Shown in pieces: positions 390 to 13,336 of a stretch of 32,582 nt of DNA. The first letter of the stretch is position 1. Every line of letters begins with the position of its first letter. This DNA is from Anaerolineae bacterium. Lineage in GTDB: Bacteria > Chloroflexota > Anaerolineae > Aggregatilineales > Phototrophicaceae. Below the pieces are notes generated by a model. It saw only the letters and a program-made list of their open reading frames with translations. It was not told where the DNA came from and searched no databases. Both the position numbers and the translations under genes were made by a program. The stretch lies in contig JAEUQX010000308.1 of assembly GCA_016788625.1 (NCBI GenBank), forward strand, positions 1-32,582. Reading direction: 5' to 3'.

Positions 390-444
390 GCCCAACATCA
401 GCAGGGAATAACCCACCACACGTCAGGTTGACCCCATGCAGAAC

Positions 445-453
445 TGTTATAAT
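445..453 (+). promoter_or_regulatory. Extended -10 promoter for the PKD lipoprotein gene
   Basis: TGTTATAAT matches the extended -10 pattern TGnTATAAT. A TTGACC lies at 428-433, but only 14 bases away, so the extended -10 probably does most of the work. Its position downstream of the ATG at 436 argues that translation starts at 496 and not at 436. Confidence 0.6.
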
Positions 454-495
454 CACTTTACTTGGAGTTGTGAATCGATTGAAAAGAGGGTTCTA

Positions 496-3400
496 ATGGC
501 TGGAAGAGTAGGAATGAAGGTTCTGCCTCTGGTGCTGCTGCTCATAGCTACACTGTTGGCGGGTTGTAACTTATCCAGCGCGCCTGAACAGCAACTAGCG
601 CTGACCGAGATCCCCACAAATACTCCCCCGCCGAGCCGAACGCCTGCGGGCGTCTCGGGTGTGCCGACGACGCTGCCACTGACACCACTGCCGACGACCA
701 TTGGTGGCGGGCAAGGTATAGTACCTACGTCGGCAGCGCTTCCACCTACGGGTGTCCCCTTCCCCACGCTTACCCCAACACCCATCAGTATTGTGATTCT
801 ATCTCCCATTCCTGGCAACGTTGTGGCGAGTAATGTGCAGATATTGGGAGCGGCCATTCATCCACAGTTCCTGCAGTATCAGGTTGAATATGGCCCCGAC
901 CCCAATCCGAGCAACCTGTGGTTTGCGGCGACCAGCATTGTACAGACACCTGTACTGAATGGCTTGTTAGGCATATGGAATACGACCACCACGCCCGATG
1001 GCATCTATCAGCTTCGGCTGCGCGTAACGCTTTCGGATGGCACTAGCCTGGCGACAGTGGTAAACAATATTCGCGTGCAAAACCAGCAACCGACCCCTAT
1101 TCCGTCGGCAACACCGAGCATCCAGCGTCCTATCGCTGCCTTCACGCTGGACAGGTCATCTGGTCAGACACCGTTGGTAGTGCGGTTCACCAATCAATCG
1201 AGCGGCCAGATCTCAAGCTATACCTGGGACTTTGGCGATGGTGGCACCAGTACCGAAGCCAGCCCGACCTATACGTTCCGCCGTACTGGCGTGTTTAATG
1301 TCATACTCACAGTCGCGGGGCCAGGTGGTTCGTCCAATGTCTCGCGGCAGGTGAACGTACAAAGCCCTGCGGCCCCGCTTGCTGCCTTCACGCAGGATCG
1401 AACCAGCGGTCCAGCTCCGCTGACGGTACGTTTCACGAATCAATCGAGCGGCCAGATTACTGGCTACACCTGGGACTTTGGTGATGGCAGCACCAGCACC
1501 GAACAAAACCCAATCCATCAGTTCGCTCGTATTGGCACCTATAACGTCATTCTGACGGTCACCGGGCCGGGTGGAACAGCCTTTGCAACCGTGAAGGTTA
1601 CAGCGGAAGACACCTCTATTCCCGCGCCAGATGCGGTCTTCACTGCGGCGCCAGCCAGTGGCAATGCCCCGCTGGATGTGCAGTTCACCAGTGCTTCAAC
1701 AGGCCAGATTACCAGCTATAGTTGGGACTTTGGTGATGGCAGTACGAGTACGGAAACCAACCCTCGCCATCGTTTTGATCGCGCGGGCACATACACGGTC
1801 AGGCTGACGGTCGTTGGCCCCGGTGGTCAGGACAATGCGCAGCAAACAATTAGCGTAACTCAGCAGGCAAATGCACCTGTGGCATCCTTCAGGGCAACCC
1901 CACTGTCTGGAAACGTGCCACTGAATGTCCGCTTTGAGAACACGTCGAGCGGCAGCATCACCAGCTACAGTTGGGATTTCGGTGATGGGCAAACCAGCGC
2001 CGAGCAGTCACCGTCTCACAATTACACGGTGGCTGGCACCTACACAGTGAAGCTGACGGTGAGCGGGCCAGGTGGCACAAGCGAGGCTACAGGCACAATC
2101 ACGGCGACACAACCTGTTACAGCGCCAACCGCAGCCTTTGCAGCCGACCCAACAACCGGTGAAGCGCCCTTGACCGTTGTGTTCCGCAATCAATCAACGG
2201 GACAGGGCTTGTCCAATGCGTGGGATTTCGGTGATGGGCAGACCAGCACGGAAACCAGTCCAACACATATTTTCAATGCCGTGGGACGATATGAAGTTAA
2301 ACTGACTGTTACCAACAGCGCAGGTTCTTCAACGGCCACTGCAGTTATCCAGGTTAGTGATCGACCGGTCGCGCCAGTGGCGAGCTTCACGGCTAACCCG
2401 CCGAGCGGGGACGCGCCGCTGAATGTGCAGTTCGACTCGTCAGCCTCGAGCGGAATGATCACCAGCTACGCCTGGGACTTTGGTGACGGCGGCACGAGCG
2501 CGGATGCCAATCCGAGCCACCAATACACGACGCCGAACACGTACACCGTGACGCTGACGGTGAGCGGGCCAGCGGGCAGCAACAGCACAACAGGCACCGT
2601 CACGGTCAACGCGGCAGCTGTCGCGCCAGTGGCGAGCTTCACAGCTAACCCGCCGAGTGGGGCCGCGCCGCTGAATGTACAGTTCGACTCGTCAGCCTCG
2701 AGCGGAACGATCACCAGCTACGCCTGGGACTTTGGTGACGGGGGCACGAGCGCGGATGCCAACCCGAGCCACCAATACACGACCCCCAACACGTACACGG
2801 TGACGCTAACGGTGAGCGGGCCAGCGGGCAGCAACAGCACAACAGGCACCGTCACGGTCAATGCGGCAGCGTTTACTTCTCCGATCAGCGAGCCTGTTGC
2901 ATTTGTCACCGACCGCGATGGCAACAACGAAATCTACCTCCTTGACACGGATGGTACGTTGACTAATCTGACGAACAACGGGGCGAATGATTTCGATCCG
3001 GCCTGGTCGTCGGATGGAAGCCAGATCACCTTTGTGTCGAATCGCGACGGCAACAACGAAATCTACGTCATGAATGCTGATGGCAGCGGTGTGCAGCGCG
3101 TCACTGATAATCCGGCGGATGATGTACTGCCTGTGTGGTCGTCGGACAATCGGCAGATCGCCTTTGTGTCGAATCGTGACGGCAACAATGAAATCTACGT
3201 CATGAATGCTGATGGCACAGACCCTGTCAACGTCACCAATAACCCTACCAATGACACAATGCCTGCACCTGCCCCCAATGGTACGCAGATTGCATTCGTC
3301 ACCGATCGGGATGGCAACAACGAAATCTATGTGTTGAATGCCGATGGCAGTTCAATCAACATCAGCAATGACGTCAACAACGATTTCGCACCGGCCTGGA

Positions 3401-3672
3401 CATCCGACAGCGGTCGTGTCGCGTTCGTATCGAACCGCGATGGTAACAACGAAATCTACGGCATGAATGCCGATGGCAGCGACGTGCGACGTCTGACCGA
3501 TAATGGCGCTGATGACCTGTCGCCGAATTTCACTTCAGACGATAGCCAACTTGCGTTCATCACAAACCGGGATGGCAACAATGAGGTCTATCAGATGAAT
3601 GTGGACGGTAGTAATCCGCTCAATGTAACGAACAACCCTGCGAGCGAATCCTCGCCGCGCTGGCGTCGCTAG
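496..3672 (+). CDS. Exported lipoprotein with seven PKD domains and a TolB/PD40-like propeller
   Basis: A 1058-residue protein. The start at 496 is chosen because a purine-rich ribosome site (AAAGAGGG) precedes it and the promoter lies between 436 and 496. A lipoprotein signal ends in LLAGC (Cys24), so the mature protein should be anchored to the outer face of the membrane. A Pro/Thr-rich linker (about 30-100) and a beta-sandwich-like segment (about 100-200) follow. Then come seven PKD domains (about 214-792), each with a form of WDFGDG, and six repeats of about 44 residues containing NRDGNNEIY (about 800-1058), the PD40/TolB-like propeller type. PKD and such propellers usually mediate protein or glycan binding, so an adhesive or scaffolding role is likely but inferred. 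PKD units 6 and 7 are almost identical in DNA. A hairpin follows the gene. Confidence 0.93.
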   Translation: MAGRVGMKVLPLVLLLIATLLAGCNLSSAPEQQLALTEIPTNTPPPSRTPAGVSGVPTTLPLTPLPTTIGGGQGIVPTSAALPPTGVPFPTLTPTPISIVILSPIPGNVVASNVQILGAAIHPQFLQYQVEYGPDPNPSNLWFAATSIVQTPVLNGLLGIWNTTTTPDGIYQLRLRVTLSDGTSLATVVNNIRVQNQQPTPIPSATPSIQRPIAAFTLDRSSGQTPLVVRFTNQSSGQISSYTWDFGDGGTSTEASPTYTFRRTGVFNVILTVAGPGGSSNVSRQVNVQSPAAPLAAFTQDRTSGPAPLTVRFTNQSSGQITGYTWDFGDGSTSTEQNPIHQFARIGTYNVILTVTGPGGTAFATVKVTAEDTSIPAPDAVFTAAPASGNAPLDVQFTSASTGQITSYSWDFGDGSTSTETNPRHRFDRAGTYTVRLTVVGPGGQDNAQQTISVTQQANAPVASFRATPLSGNVPLNVRFENTSSGSITSYSWDFGDGQTSAEQSPSHNYTVAGTYTVKLTVSGPGGTSEATGTITATQPVTAPTAAFAADPTTGEAPLTVVFRNQSTGQGLSNAWDFGDGQTSTETSPTHIFNAVGRYEVKLTVTNSAGSSTATAVIQVSDRPVAPVASFTANPPSGDAPLNVQFDSSASSGMITSYAWDFGDGGTSADANPSHQYTTPNTYTVTLTVSGPAGSNSTTGTVTVNAAAVAPVASFTANPPSGAAPLNVQFDSSASSGTITSYAWDFGDGGTSADANPSHQYTTPNTYTVTLTVSGPAGSNSTTGTVTVNAAAFTSPISEPVAFVTDRDGNNEIYLLDTDGTLTNLTNNGANDFDPAWSSDGSQITFVSNRDGNNEIYVMNADGSGVQRVTDNPADDVLPVWSSDNRQIAFVSNRDGNNEIYVMNADGTDPVNVTNNPTNDTMPAPAPNGTQIAFVTDRDGNNEIYVLNADGSSINISNDVNNDFAPAWTSDSGRVAFVSNRDGNNEIYGMNADGSDVRRLTDNGADDLSPNFTSDDSQLAFITNRDGNNEVYQMNVDGSNPLNVTNNPASESSPRWRR
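2368..2871 (+). repeat. Tandem duplication of a 252-bp unit encoding PKD domains 6 and 7
   Basis: Two directly adjacent copies, 2368-2619 and 2620-2871, each 84 codons, differ at only a small number of mostly silent positions (for example GGGGACGCG against GGGGCCGCG). The other five PKD units in the gene are much more diverged. This points to a recent in-frame duplication or gene conversion. Confidence 0.9.
2902..3672 (+). repeat. Six tandem coding repeats of 129-132 bp (propeller blades)
   Basis: Repeat units begin at 2902, 3031, 3163, 3295, 3424 and 3556. Each encodes a Phe followed by a Thr/Ser-Asp/Asn-Arg-Asp-Gly-Asn-Asn-Glu core and an Asn/Asp-Ala/Val-Asp-Gly turn. DNA identity is highest in the 40 or so bases around GATGGCAACAACGAAATCTA. 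The rest of each unit has diverged, so these are older repeats than the PKD 6/7 pair. Confidence 0.85.
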
Positions 3673-3690
3673 TTCACACATACCGTAGTT

Positions 3691-3721
3691 GCAAGGACTC
3701 CTCATGACGAGGAGTCCTTGC
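3691..3721 (+). terminator. Perfect 13-bp hairpin after the PKD lipoprotein gene
   Basis: GCAAGGACTCCTC and its exact complement are separated by the five-base loop ATGAC, 18 bases after the stop codon. No T-run follows on either strand, so it may be a weak or factor-assisted terminator, or an mRNA 3' end stabiliser. It sits between two genes that otherwise face the same way. Confidence 0.6.
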
Positions 3722-3737
3722 CCCTCCTCGCGAATGA

Positions 3738-3767
3738 TTGCTGATTGCTCCGAAGCTGTGGTACGAT
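3738..3767 (+). promoter_or_regulatory. Promoter for the G5 lipoprotein gene
   Basis: TTGCTG (3738-3743), an 18-base spacer, and TACGAT (3762-3767) preceded by TG, making an extended -10. The -10 ends only 8 bases before the chosen ATG at 3776, so the transcript may be leaderless. Confidence 0.45.
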
Positions 3768-3775
3768 TGCCTCTC

Positions 3776-5377
3776 ATGTGGACAAAAAGACTCATCCTAC
3801 TCATCCTGCTCGTCGTGGCGTCCTGTCGTCAACCTGCTGAAACCCAGCAGGAAATTCGAGTTTCACTGGTTGCCGACGGGCGCGAACGCACCTTCATCCT
3901 ACCTGCGCCAACAACAATTGATGAATTCCTTCGTACGCCCCGCGTCGATGTCCAGCTTGGAGAACTTGATCAGGTCAATCCTCCCGCGTTCACCCAAATC
4001 ACGGATGGTATGCGAATAACCATTGCCCGTGTCCGCGAAGAAACACAGTGTGAACAGACCGAAGTGCCGTACAAACAGACAACACAATTGAACGAAGGTT
4101 TGGCGGCGGGCGAACAACGCGTAGTTCAGGCAGGACAAAACGGCATTCTGGAAATATGTTATCGGGTAACCATTGTCGATGGAACGCCGCTCAGTCGCGC
4201 GGAAACAAATCGCACGACAATCCGCGCGGCACAGGACGAGATCGTCTACGTTGGCCCAACCGGCGAAATTGAACCCATTCCAATCACGGGCACACTGGCG
4301 TACATCAACAATGGCAACGCCTGGATAATTCGCGGCAGCAGCACCAGCAAACGCCCACTCACAACCGAAGGCGATCTGGATGGTCGCGTATTCAGCCTCT
4401 CCGATGATGGTCGTCGCTTGTTGTTCACACGCAGCTCATCCGACCTTGACCCTGCCACAGTCTTTAACCAGCTTTGGCTCGTTCCAGATACTACGCTCTC
4501 TGCTGAACTTGTGGCATTGGTACCCAACAACATTTTGTATGCTGAATGGATTCCCAACCGCGAAAACACCATTAGTTATTCTTCCGGCACCCCGCGTGAA
4601 GCTGCCCCAAAGTGGCTGGCATATAACGACCTGTGGGAAATGCGAATCGACCCCCTCACGGGAGAGTCATTGGGTGTTCGTGAAATCGTTGAACGTTCAA
4701 CACGCGGGCCGTATAGTTGGTGGGGAACCCGCTTTCACTGGTCACCCGATGGTCAGAAGTTGGTCTGGGTGCAGGCAGACAGCATTGGCCTTGTGAATTT
4801 GGAAACGGGCGAACTGGAGCCGCCTCTCTTAAATTATGCGGTATTGCGTCCTGTTGGTGATTGGTCCTGGCGAGCGACCGTGTCGTGGTCACAGGACAGC
4901 GCGCTCATCGCTACGACTGCGCATGGGGCACCTGTCGGCAGCGAACTGCCGGAAAGCAGCCCAGCATTTGATCTCACCGTCGTTAGCGCGGATGGCTCCT
5001 TCACTGCGCCGCTGCTTCCTGGCGTTGGCATTTGGTCTGCGCCACAGCTTTCACCCTTTATCGTGAACGCCAATTCCGAATTTCCACAGGGCTATCTGGC
5101 CTTCCTGCGCGCCCGCGACCCGTACAACAGCATCAATGGCGAATACGATCTGGTTGTCGCTGACCGTGACGGCAGTAATGCGCGCGTTGTCTTTGGGCGG
5201 TCTGGCATTCGGGCGCAGCAGTCGATTTACCAGAATCGGGAATTCGTGTGGAGTCCGGACGGACGTCAGATTGCATTTGTCTATCTGGGCAACATCTGGG
5301 TTGTTGATGTCGAATCTGAAGTCGCCACTCAGTTAACGCTGGATGGCGCGGCTTCCACCCCCATCTGGACACGATGA
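3776..5377 (+). CDS. Lipoprotein with ubiquitin-like (DUF348), G5 and TolB-like propeller domains
   Basis: 533 residues from the ATG at 3776. That start gives a compact lipoprotein signal, MWTKRLILLILLVVASC, with Cys17; the longer frame from 3689 would start inside the hairpin. Residues about 25-90 (around VSLVADGRERTFILPAPTT) resemble the DUF348 ubiquitin-like fold that often precedes G5. Residues about 93-165 have the G5 pattern, with TEVPYKQ, GLAAGEQRVVQAG and YRVTIVDG. The rest contains repeated WSPDGQKLVWV-type strands of a propeller. G5 domains are known to bind cell-wall or amino-sugar polymers, which suggests a surface-attached role. Its stop overlaps the next start by 4 bases (ATGA), so the two genes are probably translationally coupled. 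Confidence 0.88.
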   Translation: MWTKRLILLILLVVASCRQPAETQQEIRVSLVADGRERTFILPAPTTIDEFLRTPRVDVQLGELDQVNPPAFTQITDGMRITIARVREETQCEQTEVPYKQTTQLNEGLAAGEQRVVQAGQNGILEICYRVTIVDGTPLSRAETNRTTIRAAQDEIVYVGPTGEIEPIPITGTLAYINNGNAWIIRGSSTSKRPLTTEGDLDGRVFSLSDDGRRLLFTRSSSDLDPATVFNQLWLVPDTTLSAELVALVPNNILYAEWIPNRENTISYSSGTPREAAPKWLAYNDLWEMRIDPLTGESLGVREIVERSTRGPYSWWGTRFHWSPDGQKLVWVQADSIGLVNLETGELEPPLLNYAVLRPVGDWSWRATVSWSQDSALIATTAHGAPVGSELPESSPAFDLTVVSADGSFTAPLLPGVGIWSAPQLSPFIVNANSEFPQGYLAFLRARDPYNSINGEYDLVVADRDGSNARVVFGRSGIRAQQSIYQNREFVWSPDGRQIAFVYLGNIWVVDVESEVATQLTLDGAASTPIWTR

Positions 5378-8300
5378 ACCGCAGCCTCGTCATTGTTTTT
5401 CTCGCTGCCCTGATCTTCCTGGGTAGCCTTGTCACGCTGGGCGCGACCGTGCAGGAACGTGACTTCGAACTACGCGGTTATGTTGATGCGTCTCTTGACT
5501 CCAATCTTCCCTTTCGCGTCCCACGTTTCGGCGTCAATGTCGAGTTAGAACAATATGATGATGCCCGTTTGCGGCGGCATCTGGGCTGGATGCAGCAGGC
5601 ACATGTCACCTGGCTGCGTCAAATTGTGCGTTGGGATGAACTGGAACCCCACCCAGACGAATACAATTGGGGTCCTTGGGACAAGATCACGGCTGCTGTG
5701 GCGGAATTTCCCCAGCTAAGGCTCGTCGCCGTGCTGGTCAACTCACCAGATTGGGCGCGGGAACAGGGCGACCTGACAGCACCACCGCAAGACCCTGCAC
5801 GGTTTGCCGCGTTCGCATCGGCTTTTGCAGACCGATACAGCAATATTGTTGACCACTACCAGATCTGGGACGAGCCGAACTTGGCAAGTGCCTGGGGCGG
5901 TCTTGAACCACGCCCAGCCGATTACCTCGCGCTGCTCAGCGCGGCATACCAGGCCATTCACGATAGCGACCCCCATGCGACGGTCTTGAGCGCCGCGCTC
6001 GCGCCGACCACCGAGACGGGGGGGCAGAATATCAGTGACCTGCTTTATCTGCGAGACCTCTATGCGTTGGGCGCCAACGAATACATGGATGCTGCTGCGG
6101 GCAAACCCTTTGGCTTCAGTATCCATCCGCTCGACCGCCAGGTGCGGACAGACACGCTCAGTTTTTCGCGTGCCGTTGCTCTACGTGAAGTAATGCTCGA
6201 CTTCAATCAGGGTAAACAGGCACTCTGGGCGGCGAATTGGGGATGGAACGCACTTCCTGGCGATTGGACAGGAGAAGCATCCATTTGGGGACAGGTTACG
6301 GCGGATGAGCGTGTACATTACACACTGACTGCTCTTGACCGCGCAGACCGCGAATGGCCCTGGTTAGGCGGGTTGATCTTGCAGCATTGGCAGCCAGATG
6401 CACCACCGGATGACCCACAATGGGGTTTTGCCGTCATTGCATCGGATGACACCCCTACTCCATTGTGGCACGCATTGGTCAATCGTCCGCAGCCGCTTGC
6501 CGCCGAGAATGGCCTTTTTCCCGCGGTCAATCCATATGCGACCTATTCGGGAGTCTGGACATTCGGCCCGTTGGGTGCCGATATTGGTTGGGTACAGGAC
6601 AGTCAATTTGCCTTTCGCTTTCGTGGTCGTGATATTTCCCTGCTGCTTCGGCAGGACAATTACACAGCCTATCTCTATCCTAGTATCGATGGTGAGCCAG
6701 CAAATGCGATTCCGCGCGATTCATCGGGGAACGCTTACGTTGTCCTGACTAGCGGCGGCAATCTGCCAGAAATCAATCTGGTGCCAATCGCCCGTGACCT
6801 TGTGCAGACTGAACACACACTGCGCGCAGTTGCAGACCGCGGTTGGGATCGTTGGGCACTTGCCGGTTTTGGGGTGAGTTCCGGTTCCCTTGCTGCTGAG
6901 TATAGCCGTCTGATCGATGCTTTGGTGTTGTCCACTAGTGTCGCAGGCGCTGCCTTTTTCATTACGTTTGTGAACTTGTTGCGACTCCATTTCGCCCGAA
7001 TAATTGCTGTCGCCGGAAGACTATTTGGCAGTATTGCCCGTTTTCCAATTGCTGCTGTTAGTTCAGTACTGCTGCTGGTCGGAATGCTGCTAACCTGGGG
7101 AGATGTTACGCCGACGATTTTTCGCCGCGATGCTGTACCCCTTAGTATCGCCATTGCAACGGCTGGTCTGATCAAGTTAGAGCCGGGCATTGTCATCACG
7201 ATTGCTGCGGCACTGCTGCTGTTTATCATCTGCTTCCATCGGCCTGATATTGGCCTGACGCTGGTCGTTTTCTGGTCACCGTTCTTTCTCTTCCCGGTTG
7301 AACTGTACCGTTTTGCCTTTCCGCTGGCTGAACTGGTGATGCTGATTACCTTTGCAGCGTGGCTTCTGCGCCAGCTCGTTGAGTGGGCACGACAGCGAGG
7401 GGAAACCAGGCAACAGATACCATTAGGTGATCGGCTCCGGCAGCTTCAGATGTTGGACTGGGCTGTACTCGCCTGGGTAGTACTTGGCTGCGCAGCATTC
7501 CTCTGGTCAGAACGACGTGGCGAAGCACTCACAGAACTGCGTATGTTATTTATCGAACCCGCAATCTTTTATCTCATCTTTCGCAGCACGCGGCTTAGTC
7601 GCGGACAGGTTGTGCGAATTGTAGATGCACTGCTGCTTGCGGGATTGTTCGTCGCGGTCATCGGCCTTTGGCAGTTCATTCAGGGCCAGGCGATCATCAC
7701 TGCTGAAGCTGGAGCGCGCCGCCTCGCCAGCGTCTATGGTTCTCCGAATAATGTCGCCTTACTACTGGGTCGCTCTATTCCATTCGCACTGGCCTATTTG
7801 CTCCTGCTTGTCGGTTCGTTTCGTCGCATCAGCGCTGCGCTCTGGTTCGTCCCAGTAACACTTGCACTGCTGTTAACCCAAAGCGTAGGAGCATTGTTCC
7901 TGGGCGTACCAGCGGCTATCGTCACTGTTTTCGCCCTTACCTATCGCCGGCGCGCATTTCTGCCAATTGCTGCGATGGTGGTCATTAGTGTACTTGCCTT
8001 CATCGGTGCGCTTCAAATTCCGAGATTTGCGCGCGTGCTGGATTTCACCGAAGGAACCAACTTCTATCGGCTGCGTGTCTGGGAGAGTGCTGTCAATATC
8101 ATCCGCGACCATCCCTTGACAGGTCTTGGTCTGGATCAGTTCCTGTACGCATTTCGCGGACACTACATCCTGCCAGATGCGTGGCAGGAGCCGAATCTAT
8201 CACATCCGCACAACATCGTGCTTGACTTCTGGGTACGACTAGGTGTCATCGGCGTCGCCGTGCTGTTCAGTATGATGGTACTCTTTTTGCGGCGGATGCT

Positions 8301-8502
8301 GCTTTCCTATAACCGTCACATAAAGGCAAGGTCGCTGTATCTGGCGCTGCTCATCGGCGCGATGGGCGCAATGATGAACCTGCTCGCGCACGGGCTGGTC
8401 GACAATAGCGTTTACGTTCAGGACTTGGCTTACATCTTTGTGTTGTTGCTGGGTTTAGCCGCTCATGCATCGAACACGCGATCTATTGACGAACCCTTGT
8501 GA
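5374..8502 (+). CDS. Glycoside-hydrolase-like domain fused to an O-antigen ligase/polymerase (Wzy_C) membrane domain
   Basis: 1042 residues. The N-terminus has a signal-anchor (about 5-25). Residues about 45-380 form a cellulase-like barrel of the GH39/GH5 type, with WDEPN (165-169) holding the usual acid/base Glu167. The second expected Glu, normally in a W-x-x-E-x-G-W setting, appears as WAANWGW with Asn288, so hydrolysis may be lost. Residues about 385-500 look like a beta-sandwich. From about 510 on there are some 12 membrane segments. The loop with NIIRDHPLTGLGLDQF, and SHPHN further on, is typical of Wzy_C/WaaL enzymes, which join or polymerise lipid-linked glycans outside the membrane. 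A second such enzyme is encoded at 10114-11631. The domain assignments come from motifs and topology; the fusion itself is a single uninterrupted frame. Confidence 0.85.
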   Translation: MNRSLVIVFLAALIFLGSLVTLGATVQERDFELRGYVDASLDSNLPFRVPRFGVNVELEQYDDARLRRHLGWMQQAHVTWLRQIVRWDELEPHPDEYNWGPWDKITAAVAEFPQLRLVAVLVNSPDWAREQGDLTAPPQDPARFAAFASAFADRYSNIVDHYQIWDEPNLASAWGGLEPRPADYLALLSAAYQAIHDSDPHATVLSAALAPTTETGGQNISDLLYLRDLYALGANEYMDAAAGKPFGFSIHPLDRQVRTDTLSFSRAVALREVMLDFNQGKQALWAANWGWNALPGDWTGEASIWGQVTADERVHYTLTALDRADREWPWLGGLILQHWQPDAPPDDPQWGFAVIASDDTPTPLWHALVNRPQPLAAENGLFPAVNPYATYSGVWTFGPLGADIGWVQDSQFAFRFRGRDISLLLRQDNYTAYLYPSIDGEPANAIPRDSSGNAYVVLTSGGNLPEINLVPIARDLVQTEHTLRAVADRGWDRWALAGFGVSSGSLAAEYSRLIDALVLSTSVAGAAFFITFVNLLRLHFARIIAVAGRLFGSIARFPIAAVSSVLLLVGMLLTWGDVTPTIFRRDAVPLSIAIATAGLIKLEPGIVITIAAALLLFIICFHRPDIGLTLVVFWSPFFLFPVELYRFAFPLAELVMLITFAAWLLRQLVEWARQRGETRQQIPLGDRLRQLQMLDWAVLAWVVLGCAAFLWSERRGEALTELRMLFIEPAIFYLIFRSTRLSRGQVVRIVDALLLAGLFVAVIGLWQFIQGQAIITAEAGARRLASVYGSPNNVALLLGRSIPFALAYLLLLVGSFRRISAALWFVPVTLALLLTQSVGALFLGVPAAIVTVFALTYRRRAFLPIAAMVVISVLAFIGALQIPRFARVLDFTEGTNFYRLRVWESAVNIIRDHPLTGLGLDQFLYAFRGHYILPDAWQEPNLSHPHNIVLDFWVRLGVIGVAVLFSMMVLFLRRMLLSYNRHIKARSLYLALLIGAMGAMMNLLAHGLVDNSVYVQDLAYIFVLLLGLAAHASNTRSIDEPL

Positions 8503-8547: not shown

Positions 8548-9099
8548 ATGAAAGCAAAGGTGAACAAGGTCACCATCCAACTGGTGCAGGAAAATATCCT
8601 GTCGCTGGCGGTGCAGGCCGTGGTCACCGTGACTGACACAAACCTGACCGTTAATCCAGCCCTGGCCGCCAAGGCTGGACCTTCAGTGCAGGAAGCCTGT
8701 GATGTGCTGCAGTGGTGCGACGTTGGCTCAGCAGTGATGACGGATCCCGGCGACCTGCCGATACAAAAAATCATCCATGCTGTTGGGCCGCGCTGGGGCG
8801 AAGGCAGCGAACGTGGCAAACTCGCCAATGTGACCATTCAATCTCTCCGTCTGGCGGAACAAAGCCGCCTTAAGTCCATTGCTATTCCCGCGATTTCAAC
8901 AGGTATTCTGGGTTACCCCGTCGAAAATTGTGCCAAAACAATGCTGACACAGATCCTTGATTTCACATTCGAAGCACGCTTTCTCAAGACGATTCTTATC
9001 TGCCTCGACTCACCTTCTGCCTATTCAATCTTCAAAGCCGAACTGACCTTGCAGCTCGATGAACTCAAAGAAGCGGGCGAAGGGGAAGTCAGCGTTTAG
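8548..9099 (+). CDS. Macrodomain protein (ADP-ribose binding or hydrolysis)
   Basis: 183 residues; an ATG start follows a GGGGATG-like purine stretch. The macrodomain order is visible: an early strand with VQAVVTVTDTN (where the family has AIVNAAN), IIHAVGPRWGEG, then AIPAISTGILGYP, and a final strand ILICLDSPSAY. Macrodomains bind ADP-ribose or its derivatives, and some remove ADP-ribose from proteins or nucleic acids. The glycine-rich loop after the key Asn, usually GGGG-V-x-x-A-I, is replaced here by NPALAAKAGPSVQ, so ligand choice or catalysis may differ. It has its own promoter and lies within a polysaccharide cluster where no partner is obvious. No ADP-ribosyltransferase was seen nearby. 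Confidence 0.85.
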   Translation: MKAKVNKVTIQLVQENILSLAVQAVVTVTDTNLTVNPALAAKAGPSVQEACDVLQWCDVGSAVMTDPGDLPIQKIIHAVGPRWGEGSERGKLANVTIQSLRLAEQSRLKSIAIPAISTGILGYPVENCAKTMLTQILDFTFEARFLKTILICLDSPSAYSIFKAELTLQLDELKEAGEGEVSV

Positions 9100-9171: not shown

Positions 9172-10104
9172 TTGCGCGTACTCATTACTGGCGGGGCGGG
9201 TTTCCTCGGCTCGCACCTGTGTGATCGTTTCCTGGCTGAGGGCCATACGGTTGTTGCGATGGACAATCTGATCACAGGCAACACCCGCAATATCGCTCAC
9301 CTGGCTGGCAACAAGAACTTCACCTTTATCCATCACGATATCACCAACTACATCTACCTCAATGGCGATGTAGATGCTGTCCTGCACTTCGCTTCTCCTG
9401 CAAGCCCCATCGACTATCTCAAGCTCCCGATTCAAACCCTGAAGGTTGGTTCGCTTGGCACACACAACGCACTGGGACTCGCACTTGCAAAGGGTGCCAG
9501 GTTCCTGCTCGCCTCCACCTCCGAAGTCTATGGTGACCCGCTGGAGCATCCGCAAAAGGAAACCTATCCTGGCAATGTCGATCCCATCGGCCCACGCGGT
9601 GTCTATGACGAAGCAAAGCGCTTTGCCGAAGCGTTGACAATGGCCTATCACAATGTTCATGGTGTTGAGACGCGCATTGTGCGTATTTTCAACACCTACG
9701 GCCCTCGGATGCGCTTGGCGGATGGCCGGGTTGTCCCGAACTTCATTGCCCAGGCCTTGCGTGGCGAACCGCTCACTGTTTATGGCGATGGCTCGCAAAC
9801 CCGCAGCTTTCAGTATGTCAGTGATCTGATCGAAGGCATCTACCGCCTGCTGCTCTCGAACTACAATGATCCAGTTAACATTGGCAACCCTGAAGAGATG
9901 ACCATCCTCGAATTCGCCAACGCGGTCAACGCAGCAACCAACAACGCGGCGGGTGTTATCTACAAAGATGAGCGTATCAAAGGTGATCCGCAGACCCGTC
10001 AGCCGGACATCACACGTGCACAGACTATTCTTGGGTGGCAGCCTAAAGTGAAGCTGCGCGAAGGCCTTGAACACACGATTGCTTACTTCCGCGAAGTCCT
10101 GTAA
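9172..10104 (+). CDS. NAD-dependent UDP-glucuronate decarboxylase-like sugar-nucleotide enzyme
   Basis: 310 residues, starting at TTG (9172) after the ribosome site AAAGGGG. An extended short-chain dehydrogenase: NAD-binding GGAGFLGSH (7-15), the STSEVYGDP stretch (115-123) with Glu118, and the catalytic pair Tyr145/Lys149 in YDEAK. The RSFQYVSDL segment is typical of UDP-glucuronic acid decarboxylases (UXS), which make UDP-xylose from UDP-glucuronate; related dTDP-glucose dehydratases are a less likely alternative. The length fits bacterial UXS. It probably supplies a pentose donor for the glycan made by the neighbouring genes. The next gene starts 9 bases after the stop, so the two are likely co-transcribed. 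Confidence 0.88.
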
Positions 10105-10113
10105 GCCTTCACG

Positions 10114-11631
10114 ATGTTGACTATCAACGCGCGAGCGGTGCCAGATTCAGCAAGTCGCTGGATATGGCTACTGCTTGCTGTTGTCTTCGGGTTGTGCGCG
10201 GCAATTTTGCCGTCTGAGCTTGCCCTTGCTGCTTTGGTGCTGTCCGTGATCATCGTCCTCGGTGCACTGTCTCCTTTTGCGGCGCTCATCGTGATGTTGC
10301 TGGTAGCTCCACTGCGCACGCTTATTGCAACAGAGGCCGCTTTTCAACTGCCACTGGATATTGGTCAACTTGCTGTGAGCGGATTCCTGTTGGCTTACCT
10401 GCTCTGGTGTTCAGTACGTCATCAGCCGCTAATACAGGTGTGGCGTTCTCCCCTAGTCATCGCACTTCTTGTGTTTATCATGATTGTGGCGCTGAGCGGG
10501 TTTATGGCGTTTTCGCTCTCAGCGTGGTTGTCGGAAATGCTCAAGTGGGTGCAAATACTCATCTTGGTCATTGTACTGCTCAGCTTTGTCCGGCGCCGTG
10601 AGTGGGAATGGCTGGTTATGGCGTTGGTTGCAGCGGGCGTTGCCAATGCGGTGGTAGGCATCTATGAGTTCTTTGGCGGTAGTGGCGCATTACACCTGTT
10701 GATCAATGACCGTTTCTTTCGAGCATTTGGCACATTCGGACAGCCTAATCCATTTGGCGGATTCATGGGGCTGCTGATTCCCATAGCAGCAGCTGCTGCG
10801 CTAGGCTATGGGCGACGCGCATGGGTAACCTTCAGACATGCGTATAGCGGGTCTATGGTTTACTTGGGCATTGCAGTATTGTACGCGCTGGCTGCCGGCG
10901 TGATGGGAATTGCGCTAGGGATGTCCTGGAGTCGTGGCGCATGGCTGGGTGTGGCTGCTTCCTTTGTCGTGATGGCTTTTGCGTTGCCCCAGCGCACAAG
11001 ACGTGGGGTGATACTGCTCACGATAATGTTGGGTGTGTTCGGTTTGCTCTGGTCACTTGGCTTGCTGCCGGAAGCAGTTGTAGCACGCATTACAAGCTCG
11101 ACACAGGAGTTTTTCGCCTTTGAGGATGTGCGAGGTGTTGATATCTCGCCAGAGAACTACGCAGTCGTTGAACGCCTTGCTCACTGGCAGGCAGCGATAA
11201 ACATGCTGCGTGCAAACCCATTGCTCGGCATTGGTTTTGGCAACTATGAAGTCGTTTATAACCAGTATCGCTTGATCAACTGGACAGAACCGCTTGGTCA
11301 CGCACACAATTACTATCTCAATCTTCTCGCTGAAGTTGGCGTGCTTGGACTGTTAGGTTACGGCAAGGTCTGGGCAGTGATAATGCTAATGACTTGGCGA
11401 GCGCGACATCATCCTGATGGTCTGGCTCGCTTTGTTGTGATAGGGCTTCTGGGGACGTGGACGTACCTGGGCGTTCACAGTGTTTTTGACAATCTCTACG
11501 TCAATAACATTTTCCTCCATTTTGGAGTTCTAGCGGGCATTCTTGCCATTCTGTATAATCAGTTATTCCCTGGTATGAAAGCTATCCGATATGGCGAATA
11601 CTTTGCAAGGCGTGCGTCGCATGATTCGTAA
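10114..11631 (+). CDS. O-antigen ligase/polymerase family (Wzy_C) membrane protein
   Basis: 505 residues with about 11-12 hydrophobic segments (first near 15-35) and the large outside loop typical of WaaL/Wzy. The family signature is seen at NPLLGIGFGNYEVVYN, followed by GHAHNYYLNLLAEVG, whose His residues are conserved in these ligases. It would ligate or polymerise lipid-linked oligosaccharides at the outer face of the membrane. It is much shorter than the fusion protein encoded at 5374-8502 and has no hydrolase-like domain. No good ribosome site precedes the ATG, which suggests coupling to the upstream UXS-like gene. Its 3' end overlaps the GtrA-like gene by 41 bases. Confidence 0.88.
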   Translation: MLTINARAVPDSASRWIWLLLAVVFGLCAAILPSELALAALVLSVIIVLGALSPFAALIVMLLVAPLRTLIATEAAFQLPLDIGQLAVSGFLLAYLLWCSVRHQPLIQVWRSPLVIALLVFIMIVALSGFMAFSLSAWLSEMLKWVQILILVIVLLSFVRRREWEWLVMALVAAGVANAVVGIYEFFGGSGALHLLINDRFFRAFGTFGQPNPFGGFMGLLIPIAAAAALGYGRRAWVTFRHAYSGSMVYLGIAVLYALAAGVMGIALGMSWSRGAWLGVAASFVVMAFALPQRTRRGVILLTIMLGVFGLLWSLGLLPEAVVARITSSTQEFFAFEDVRGVDISPENYAVVERLAHWQAAINMLRANPLLGIGFGNYEVVYNQYRLINWTEPLGHAHNYYLNLLAEVGVLGLLGYGKVWAVIMLMTWRARHHPDGLARFVVIGLLGTWTYLGVHSVFDNLYVNNIFLHFGVLAGILAILYNQLFPGMKAIRYGEYFARRASHDS

Positions 11632-12190
11632 TCCGCTAGATGCTCCTATTGTCGCGATTTCATCACGTTTTGGTGATAAGTCGAAGGAAGTAGAACGCTT
11701 CCTTAAGTTCGCGATTGTCGGAGCTATGGGCGCTGTTGTTGATCTGGGTACGGTTTTCCTACTCCAGGCAACACTCCTGCCTCCAACCGATGCAACTGGC
11801 AATCCGGTTATGCTTAATGTCGCATTGGCAACTACCGTAGCTTTCATCGCTGCGGTTGTCAGCAACTTTCTATGGAATCGCTATTGGACATATCCAGATT
11901 CGCGTTCGCGTTCGGTGCGCCGCCAGTTGGCTCTGTTCACGTTCATCAGTTTTGTTGGTTGGGCAGTTCGCACGCTTTGGATCAGCACGGCGTTTCACTT
12001 TGTTGGTGAAGTATTCATGCCTATTTTGCTGCCATTTATTCATATCGTGCGTCCAACCTATATCCCCTCCTATGCTGCTGAAGGTAAGCTGGGTACGCTG
12101 ATCGCGCAGATTATTGGTATTGGAGTGGTGATGGTCTGGAATTTCCTTGCAAATCGCTATTGGACATACAACGACGTTTCGAAGAAATGA
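11591..12190 (+). CDS. GtrA-like membrane protein
   Basis: 199 residues with four predicted membrane segments (about 37-60, 75-95, 112-130, 172-190). The GtrA pattern is present: FLKFAIVGAMGAVVDLGT near the first helix and the NRYWTY motif, which occurs after both helix 2 and helix 4. GtrA proteins are thought to flip or hand over undecaprenyl-linked sugars during glycan decoration; some act with glycosyltransferases. The start could also be the ATG at 11621 (residue 11), which would cut the overlap with the ligase gene from 41 to 11 bases. The following glycosyltransferase gene starts immediately after the stop, so the pair is probably a functional unit. Confidence 0.85.
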   Translation: MANTLQGVRRMIRNPLDAPIVAISSRFGDKSKEVERFLKFAIVGAMGAVVDLGTVFLLQATLLPPTDATGNPVMLNVALATTVAFIAAVVSNFLWNRYWTYPDSRSRSVRRQLALFTFISFVGWAVRTLWISTAFHFVGEVFMPILLPFIHIVRPTYIPSYAAEGKLGTLIAQIIGIGVVMVWNFLANRYWTYNDVSKK

Positions 12191-13336
12191 ATGGCACATC
12201 TTCCACGTATTGGTATCGACTATACGCCAGCTTATGAGCAAGGCGGAGGTATTGGTCGTTACGTCCGTGAGTTAGTCGCAGCGCTTGTTGCTCAGCGTGA
12301 TCTGTATGATTATCGTTTGTTCGTTGCTGGCGCTGCATTCCCCTTTACTGCTCCTTTCCAAGCATCTCGCGTCTCTTGGTCACCGATAACTGTTACTCCC
12401 TCCTGGCTTGCGCGTATATGGCATAGACTGCGTCTGCCGCTCGTTGTTGAGGCTTTTACTGGCAAGCTCGATCTGTTCCATGCGACTGACTTTGTCTTGC
12501 CACCTACCCTATTGCAGACGGTGACGCTGTTGACAGTGCATGATCTTTCATTTGTTCGGGTTCCGGATTCTGCTTTTCCTGCTTTGAAGCTTTACCTGGA
12601 TCAGGTTGTTCCGCGTTCCGTGATGCGTGCTGATCATATTCTTGCGGATTCGATTGCGACAAAAGTTGACTTGGTTGATTTGTATGGAGTGGTACCAGAA
12701 AAAGTAACGGTTCTTTTGAGTGGTGTTAACCAGTCTTTTGCACGCGCTACTGACCCGGTTTTCCTAATGGCTATGCGAAATAAATACGGTCTGGGGTCAT
12801 GGCCTTACCTGTTCTCGGTTGGGACAGTCCAGCCTCGGAAGAACTATGCTCGTGTCATCCAGGCATTGGCCCTTCTGCATAAGCGTGGTTTCGATCTGCA
12901 TTTGGTCATCGCTGGTGGAAAAGGATGGCTGGATGATCCAATATATGCAACAGTACATGAACAAAAAATGCGGGACTTTGTACACTTTATTGGCTTTGCG
13001 GATGATGCGGATTTGCCAGCTCTGTATTCTGCTGCCAGTTGTTTTGTCTTCCCATCACTATATGAAGGCTTTGGACTTCCTGTATTAGAAGCGATGCGTT
13101 GCGGTACACCCGTTGTCACATCAAACGTCTCATCGCTTCCTGAAGTCGCCGGTGATGCCGCCCTCACTGTTGATCCGTATGATGTCGAGGCTATTGCTGA
13201 TGCCCTTGAGAGAATAGTCTACTCGTCATCACTATGCGAAACTTTAGTGTCGCGTGGTTACGAGCGGGCGCGACAGTTCACCTGGGAAGCATCGGCACAG
13301 CACCTGCTCGATATCTACGCCCAATTGCTCGCTTAG
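12191..13336 (+). CDS. Glycosyltransferase, GT4 family (GT-B fold)
   Basis: 381 residues. The N-terminal half has GIDYTPAYEQGGGIGRYV, the Gly-rich acceptor-side loop of GT4 enzymes. The C-terminal half has FSVGTVQPRKNY and the E-x7-E motif at Glu292 to Glu300 in YEGFGLPVLEAM, followed by GTPVVTSNVSSLPEV. Such enzymes transfer a sugar, often mannose, from a nucleotide-sugar with retention; the substrate cannot be read from the sequence. It is cytoplasmic, with no membrane helix. The ATG abuts the stop of the GtrA-like gene. Codons here end in T more often than in the genes to its right, and the DNA looks less GC-rich, so a different origin is possible. Confidence 0.93.
   Translation: MAHLPRIGIDYTPAYEQGGGIGRYVRELVAALVAQRDLYDYRLFVAGAAFPFTAPFQASRVSWSPITVTPSWLARIWHRLRLPLVVEAFTGKLDLFHATDFVLPPTLLQTVTLLTVHDLSFVRVPDSAFPALKLYLDQVVPRSVMRADHILADSIATKVDLVDLYGVVPEKVTVLLSGVNQSFARATDPVFLMAMRNKYGLGSWPYLFSVGTVQPRKNYARVIQALALLHKRGFDLHLVIAGGKGWLDDPIYATVHEQKMRDFVHFIGFADDADLPALYSAASCFVFPSLYEGFGLPVLEAMRCGTPVVTSNVSSLPEVAGDAALTVDPYDVEAIADALERIVYSSSLCETLVSRGYERARQFTWEASAQHLLDIYAQLLA

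Follow-up and report, generated by a model that had tools for sequence, protein, structure and literature searches.

Glycosidases are encoded in many exopolysaccharide loci, where it is debated whether they are needed, and in PelA and PgaB a glycosidase-fold domain is built into a protein of exopolysaccharide synthesis or export. PgaB is described as a multidomain exopolysaccharide export protein with a glycosidase domain (PMC5933820). In PslG of Pseudomonas aeruginosa, E165 and E276 are the catalytic residues (PMC6813494, PMC9075953), and a covalent probe attaches to E276 (PMC11912335). Wu et al. found the activity of PslG to be important, with the catalytic residues needed for normal Psl output (PMC6813494); according to Baker et al. 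2015, as reported by Wu et al., neither the PslG protein nor its activity is required (PMC6813494). Among the membrane enzymes of glycan assembly, R288, H338 and R215 have been reported as important residues of WaaL (PMC3643930). Our literature search found no description of a fusion between a Wzy protein and a glycosidase, and neither natural glycosynthases nor pseudo-glycosidases of such loci were covered by any relevant paper in it.

The window analyzed here is a stretch of 32,582 nucleotides taken as a whole (positions 1 to 32,582, forward strand) from contig JAEUQX010000308.1 in the assembly GCA_016788625.1 of an Anaerolineae bacterium. It codes for a protein that, like PgaB and PelA, has a glycosidase-fold domain within a predicted synthesis or export protein; unlike it, PgaB and PelA belong to other GH families, are active hydrolases, and have no Wzy_C fusion. 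The barrel of the window protein has its fold, sequence, acid/base Glu and aromatic cleft motifs in common with PslG, a GH39-type endo-beta-glucanase of the psl cluster, and the two proteins also share a membrane-side location and a setting in a polysaccharide assembly locus (PMC6813494, PMC11912335). However, PslG is a free protein, whereas the window barrel is fused to a putative Wzy_C membrane enzyme and has Asn in place of Glu276 and Asp in place of Asn164. We posit, with a probability of roughly two in three, that this protein polymerizes or ligates glycans at the membrane and is equipped with an outside arm, made up of a non-hydrolyzing PslG-like barrel and a CBM-like jelly roll, that holds the glycan.

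Architecture of the fusion protein

The protein starts with a membrane anchor, which is followed by a (beta/alpha)8 barrel like that of PslG, then by a jelly roll of the CBM/CE2-N kind, and at the C-terminus by a membrane domain of the WaaL/Wzy_C type. The coordinates in the window are:

5374..8502, forward strand: whole fusion protein, an open frame with an ATG start, 1042 aa
5380..5469, forward strand: transmembrane anchor helix, residues 3-32, a helix in the AlphaFold model
5506..6498, forward strand: PslG-like (beta/alpha)8 barrel, residues 45-375, from phmmer, profile and structure matches to PslG
6499..6888, forward strand: jelly-roll beta-sandwich, residues 376-505, CE2_N / CBM6/35/36-like by model and structure match
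6895..8499, forward strand: polytopic membrane domain, residues 508-1042, with a WaaL/Wzy fold by Foldseek and profile
7849..8268, forward strand: Pfam Wzy_C segment, residues 826-965 (PF04932, E 2.6e-20, 73.1 bits, cut-off 31.7)

A preliminary description of this DNA had claimed that one frame joins a glycosidase-like barrel, a beta-sandwich and a Wzy_C domain; the frame, the folds, and the Pfam and structure matches all agree with it. The same architecture is found in 131 distinct homologues from the loci of the genome search. Chance or a sequencing error as the origin of the fusion is excluded because the complete fusion is found again in dozens of genomes. Judging from the model, the anchor helix would place the barrel outside the membrane.

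A single-sequence phmmer search matches residues 52-302 to PslG (E 1.6e-15), and a profile of 60 fusions does so at E 7e-27, with PslG as the best solved relative. Structure prediction, which the preliminary description had named as a check, likewise yields an eight-stranded barrel: the AlphaFold model, built with 60 homologues (mean pLDDT 87.8), has barrel strands at residues 52-56, 80-86, 116-122, 159-164, 203-209, 240-243, 283-289 and 331-336, and the best structural neighbor of the whole model is PslG (9g17, VIA Z 33.2), with GH39 xylosidases also among its neighbors. The strands of the sandwich span residues 380-502 in the full model, and the domain folded alone reaches a pLDDT of 92.4. 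It matches the CE2 esterase 2waa with a VIA Z of 13.0 and CBM35 domains with about 10, which confirms the jelly-roll fold common to CE2_N, CBM6, CBM35 and CBM36; it differs from the CE2_N family proper, for which the Pfam score stays below the cut-off (18.1 versus 27.9 bits).

The C-terminal part matches the cryo-EM structure of WaaL (7tpg) in Foldseek (E 2.7e-8, TM 0.66 by target length). The membrane part alone found no match in a phmmer search against the PDB, and a profile of 19 homologues was needed to reach 7tpg (E 2e-7). Two conserved elements of the family are present:

8068..8070, forward strand: Arg899, in register with the Arg that is conserved in WaaL (RLKIW) and invariant in alignments A2 and A3
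8203..8214, forward strand: H944-P-H946-N947, in register with the His of the WaaL HxHN motif, H946 and N947 being invariant in the alignments

Thus, the window protein has the fold, the conserved Arg and the HxHN His in common with the WaaL O-antigen ligase and the Wzy polymerases, from which it differs in the addition of a large N-terminal double ectodomain and in having a second Wzy_C protein nearby. The putative bicarbonate transporter IctB (TIGR00947) was rejected as an identity for this domain (66.9 bits against a cut-off of 366.4). Regarding the term 'O-antigen ligase' in the preliminary description, the features of the Wzy_C superfamily in Pfam match, fold and Arg/His residues stand, but the term holds solely as a family name; the NCBIfam RfaL model scores far under its cut-off (21.9 versus 277 bits). 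Sequence and model point to a member of the Wzy_C superfamily, a predicted polymerase or ligase. Lipopolysaccharide is an unlikely acceptor in Chloroflexota.

Catalytic positions of the barrel across Chloroflexota

Two short stretches of the barrel correspond to the catalytic positions of PslG:

5866..5880, forward strand: acid/base motif W165-D166-E167-P168-N169, by conservation and alignment with WNE(165)PN of PslG
6235..6237, forward strand: codon AAT of Asn288, at the end of beta-7, replacing the nucleophile Glu276 of PslG

E167, which directly follows beta-4 in the AlphaFold model, aligns with the acid/base E165 of PslG, and the acid/base Glu is thereby present. At the end of beta-7, STE(276)WGW of PslG pairs with AAN(288)WGW of the window protein (W285-A-A-N288-W-G-W291), and the nucleophile Glu is absent; in the crystallized PslG construct, which begins near residue 31, E165 and E276 are chain positions 139 and 250. 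The preliminary description had read both positions in this way, with Glu167 kept as acid/base and Asn288 in the nucleophile position, and had named another Glu as nucleophile, or the lack of a barrel fold, as what would speak against it; neither was found in the alignment or the model. The Asn of the NE motif of clan GH-A, which precedes the acid/base Glu in 40/40 active relatives, is also absent, its place being taken by Asp166. We sought acids gained near strand ends in nucleophile-less as compared with active barrels, and none was fully conserved except D166. E214 and D239, considered as substitute carboxylate nucleophiles, are not replacements because both groups of barrels conserve them. 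When 76 nucleophile-less barrels were compared with 40 intact ones, sites 341, 337, 288 and 166 differed most strongly. Of these, 337 closes beta-8 and is occupied by Trp in 40/40 intact barrels and by E, Q, A or H in nucleophile-less ones, the window barrel having lost this Trp relative to its active Chloroflexota relatives; R120, E173 and R340 of the active relatives are likewise gone from the nucleophile-less barrels.

Chloroflexota carry the fusion widely. Of 396 genomes of Anaerolineae, the class of the window, 304 have a strong match (E <= 1e-50), and full-length versions also occur in other classes. Positions 166, 167 and 288 were read in 131 distinct fusions picked for diversity, 108 from Anaerolineae and 23 from other classes. 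The latter carry Asn-Glu...Glu in 20 cases, Asp-Glu...Glu in two, and Asp-Asp...Ala in one. The intact Asn-Glu...Glu set occurs in none of the 108 Anaerolineae fusions: residue 166 is nearly always Asp rather than Asn, E167 is present in 94, and Glu288 is absent in 91, where N, H, A, S, Q, D, R or G stands instead, while the other 17 still have it. The combinations at 166-167-288 are D-E-N (30), D-E-H (17), D-E-E (12), D-E-A (10), D-E-S (10), D-E-Q (8), H-E-A (6), H-N-H (4), D-Q-E (4) and a few others. To the question of whether Glu or Asn is usual at 288, which the preliminary description had raised, the answer is that Asn is the commonest letter in the class and Glu the usual letter in other classes; in Anaerolineae, the rule at this position appears from the alignment to be any residue other than a Glu under constraint. 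This pattern is also seen in 56 more distinct fusions, taken from records named Anaerolineae and Chloroflexi, in a scan that used the pattern WDEPN and is hence a biased sample for residue 166. One record named Pleurocapsa minor, a cyanobacterial MAG (L213, JAHHHY010000001.1), contains an Anaerolineae-type fusion with 48% identity; this contig is probably misbinned Chloroflexota.

Since two defining catalytic features fail, the barrel of the Anaerolineae fusions should, on sequence grounds, be filed as a putative pseudo-glycosidase homologue of PslG and not as a GH39 enzyme. The proteins with D-E-E are also devoid of the beta-8 Trp, and therefore appear unlikely to be ordinary retaining enzymes either. 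The barrel might nonetheless still be catalytic in the absence of a nucleophile on beta-7, by substrate-assisted catalysis with D166-E167, by inversion, or by glycosynthase-like transfer from an activated donor with E167 as base. The retention of E167 in 94/108 and of D166 in most of the class fusions speaks for this proposal, as does analogy: GH20 hexosaminidases have a similar layout, with a D-E pair on beta-4 and no nucleophile on beta-7, and the A, S or N frequently seen at 288 could recall laboratory glycosynthases, which carry these residues at the nucleophile position. However, E167 is replaced by Asn in seven class fusions, and in several others by Gln, by Ala or by a gap, with the fusion kept; position 288 is variously N, H, A, S, Q, D or R and can differ even between sister species; residues typical of the active relatives, among them the beta-8 Trp, have disappeared, D166 being the only conserved acid gained near the strand ends; and no natural case turned up in the literature searched. 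We accordingly consider such an enzyme rather unlikely, and its more specific form, in which a nucleophile-free D-E site acts on the nascent glycan by another reaction, be it substrate-assisted cleavage or a glycosynthase-like transfer, coupled to the Wzy/WaaL transferase, to be a distant prospect. As the sub-lineages without E167 (H-N-H, H-N-D, D-Q-E) retain the complete fusion, any role shared by the barrels cannot depend on hydrolysis there. In one sub-lineage (L010, L068, L079, L083, L086, L088, L108), H or N at 166 and N at 167 are combined with His or Asp at 288; by sequence, these barrels look doubly dead and are still fused.

Selection on the barrel and its proposed role

A barrel tree built without the columns 166, 167 and 288 needs a minimum of 33 letter changes at 288, 11 changes between Glu and not-Glu, and six changes of E167; the rooting of this tree on PslG is unreliable owing to the long branch. 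A tree of the membrane domain alone requires a single change between intact and not intact, and about 31 changes of the letter at 288. Even close sisters differ there, for example L046 with Asn and L049 with His. By entropy, position 288 ranks 208th in conservation among 328 barrel sites, E167 47th and D166 50th. W165, N169, W174, W285, G290 and W291 are invariant or nearly so, and P168, N169, W174 and G290 are invariant among 90 nucleophile-less barrels.

Such repeated loss of the nucleophile might suggest that the barrel is a functionless, decaying relic of an active fusion. We find this scarcely credible: closely related pairs of fusions that lack the nucleophile give a barrel dN/dS of about 0.1-0.25, similar to that of their membrane domains; there are no stops; and the barrel is retained throughout the class. 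The median ratio of barrel to membrane-domain identity is 1.16 in nucleophile-less and 1.23 in intact fusions. The barrel is thus under strong purifying selection and better conserved than the ligase domain, and the dN/dS values and identity ratios together rule out relaxation or decay. This strong selection, in spite of the repeated change at 288, therefore points to a maintained pseudo-glycosidase rather than a decaying one.

The holding arm that we favor draws on what was observed of the barrel's homology and fold, on the missing catalytic set, on purifying selection, and on the operon context and spread of the fusion throughout the class. Mechanistically, the barrel would no longer hydrolyze glycan by the Koshland retaining route; instead, the conserved cleft around D166-E167 would bind the nascent chain or the acceptor glycan, and the barrel would hold it where chains enter or leave the active site in the membrane. 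Of a PslG-like function, the locus would then retain the holding half alone. Here we infer that the cleft binds glycan, that the bound glycan is the chain handled by the fused domain, and that this domain is an active catalyst. The earlier suggestion that the outside domain binds the glycan instead of cutting it is well supported in its second half, given the loss of the nucleophile, of the beta-8 Trp and of the NE Asn in a barrel kept by selection; the binding itself we propose by extension. Presentation of the glycan to the ligase is plausible, considering that the two are fused, that a CBM-like domain has been added, and that synteny is conserved. The control of chain length or polarity, which the same description suggested, is speculative. 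Against pure holding, E167 is conserved beyond what a binding site alone would need, which leaves room for chemistry, and Glu288 persists in 17/108 class fusions. According to one study, free PslG needs its catalytic residues (PMC6813494, where Baker et al. 2015 are cited as disagreeing), and therefore the role of the barrel may have changed.

The Chloroflexota thus present a natural separation, wherein a PslG-like barrel fused to a predicted polymerase or ligase is intact in some classes and catalytically incomplete throughout Anaerolineae. The retention of the barrel under strong selection without its catalytic set argues for a non-cutting role in chain assembly, and suggests that such 'hydrolases' can serve the assembly of sugar chains by holding the chain rather than by cutting it. 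Intact, intermediate (D-E-E), nucleophile-less and acid/base-less fusions offer matched natural pairs for testing.

Gene neighborhoods and free PslG-like genes

The neighbors of the fusion are glycan-assembly genes, which recur on its strand; the following counts are of loci (160, from two overlapping samples) and not of independent genomes:

3689..5377, forward strand: secreted protein with G5 and PD40 beta-propeller domains (Pfam), overlapping the start of the fusion by 4 bases; the most constant upstream neighbor, on the same strand in 89/160 loci
9172..10104, forward strand: NAD-dependent nucleotide-sugar epimerase/dehydratase (SDR); downstream in 95/160 loci
10114..11631, forward strand: second, unfused Wzy_C protein (Pfam, 73.4 bits); downstream in 78/160 loci
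11591-12190, forward strand: GtrA-type membrane protein (Pfam); downstream in 71/160 loci
12191-13336, forward strand: GT4 glycosyltransferase (Pfam); downstream in 72/160 loci

The constancy of the G5/PD40 gene, together with the conservation of the barrel without a complete active site, could also be explained if the barrel were a structural or protein-docking domain, for instance for the G5/PD40 protein, with no glycan binding. We hold this to be unlikely, since many of the conserved residues belong to the old active-site motifs (W165-N169, W174, W285-W291) and a second carbohydrate-module-like domain is attached. A further proposal is that the barrel takes over from the chain-length co-polymerase Wzz and acts as a ruler for the polymer; a position beside the polymerase or ligase domain would suit such a ruler, but two Wzz matches are encoded elsewhere in the genome of the window, and we deem this very improbable. 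In three loci (L017, L140, L145), GH and Wzy are encoded side by side in two separate genes, which supports a functional coupling of the two.

In most loci of other classes, a PslG-like gene, in nearly all cases intact, lies directly upstream of the fusion; gene and fusion are both intact in L019-L022, L027-L029, L033, L037, L137, L138, L141 and L142. L135 and L136 stand in between, with an intact free GH and an altered fused barrel. No separate GH gene was seen beside the fusions of the window's class for which flanking sequence was available; further PslG-like genes with an intact motif occur on other contigs of the window's genome. One of these contigs (G000:C191, in L002 and L005) has several PslG-like genes in tandem, several of them with WNEPN. 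In two loci of another class (L026:66-1319 and L143:945-2198), it is the free PslG-like gene that lacks the nucleophile (WHEPN...A) and the fusion that is intact; either partner of such a pair, it seems, may be the dead one.

Directly upstream of the G5/PD40 gene, positions 436-3672 of the window code for a secreted protein with seven PKD domains and PD40 repeats. Within the glycan locus, positions 8548-9099 hold a gene for a Macro domain (ADP-ribose-binding), a homologue of which is found downstream of the fusion in 33/160 loci.
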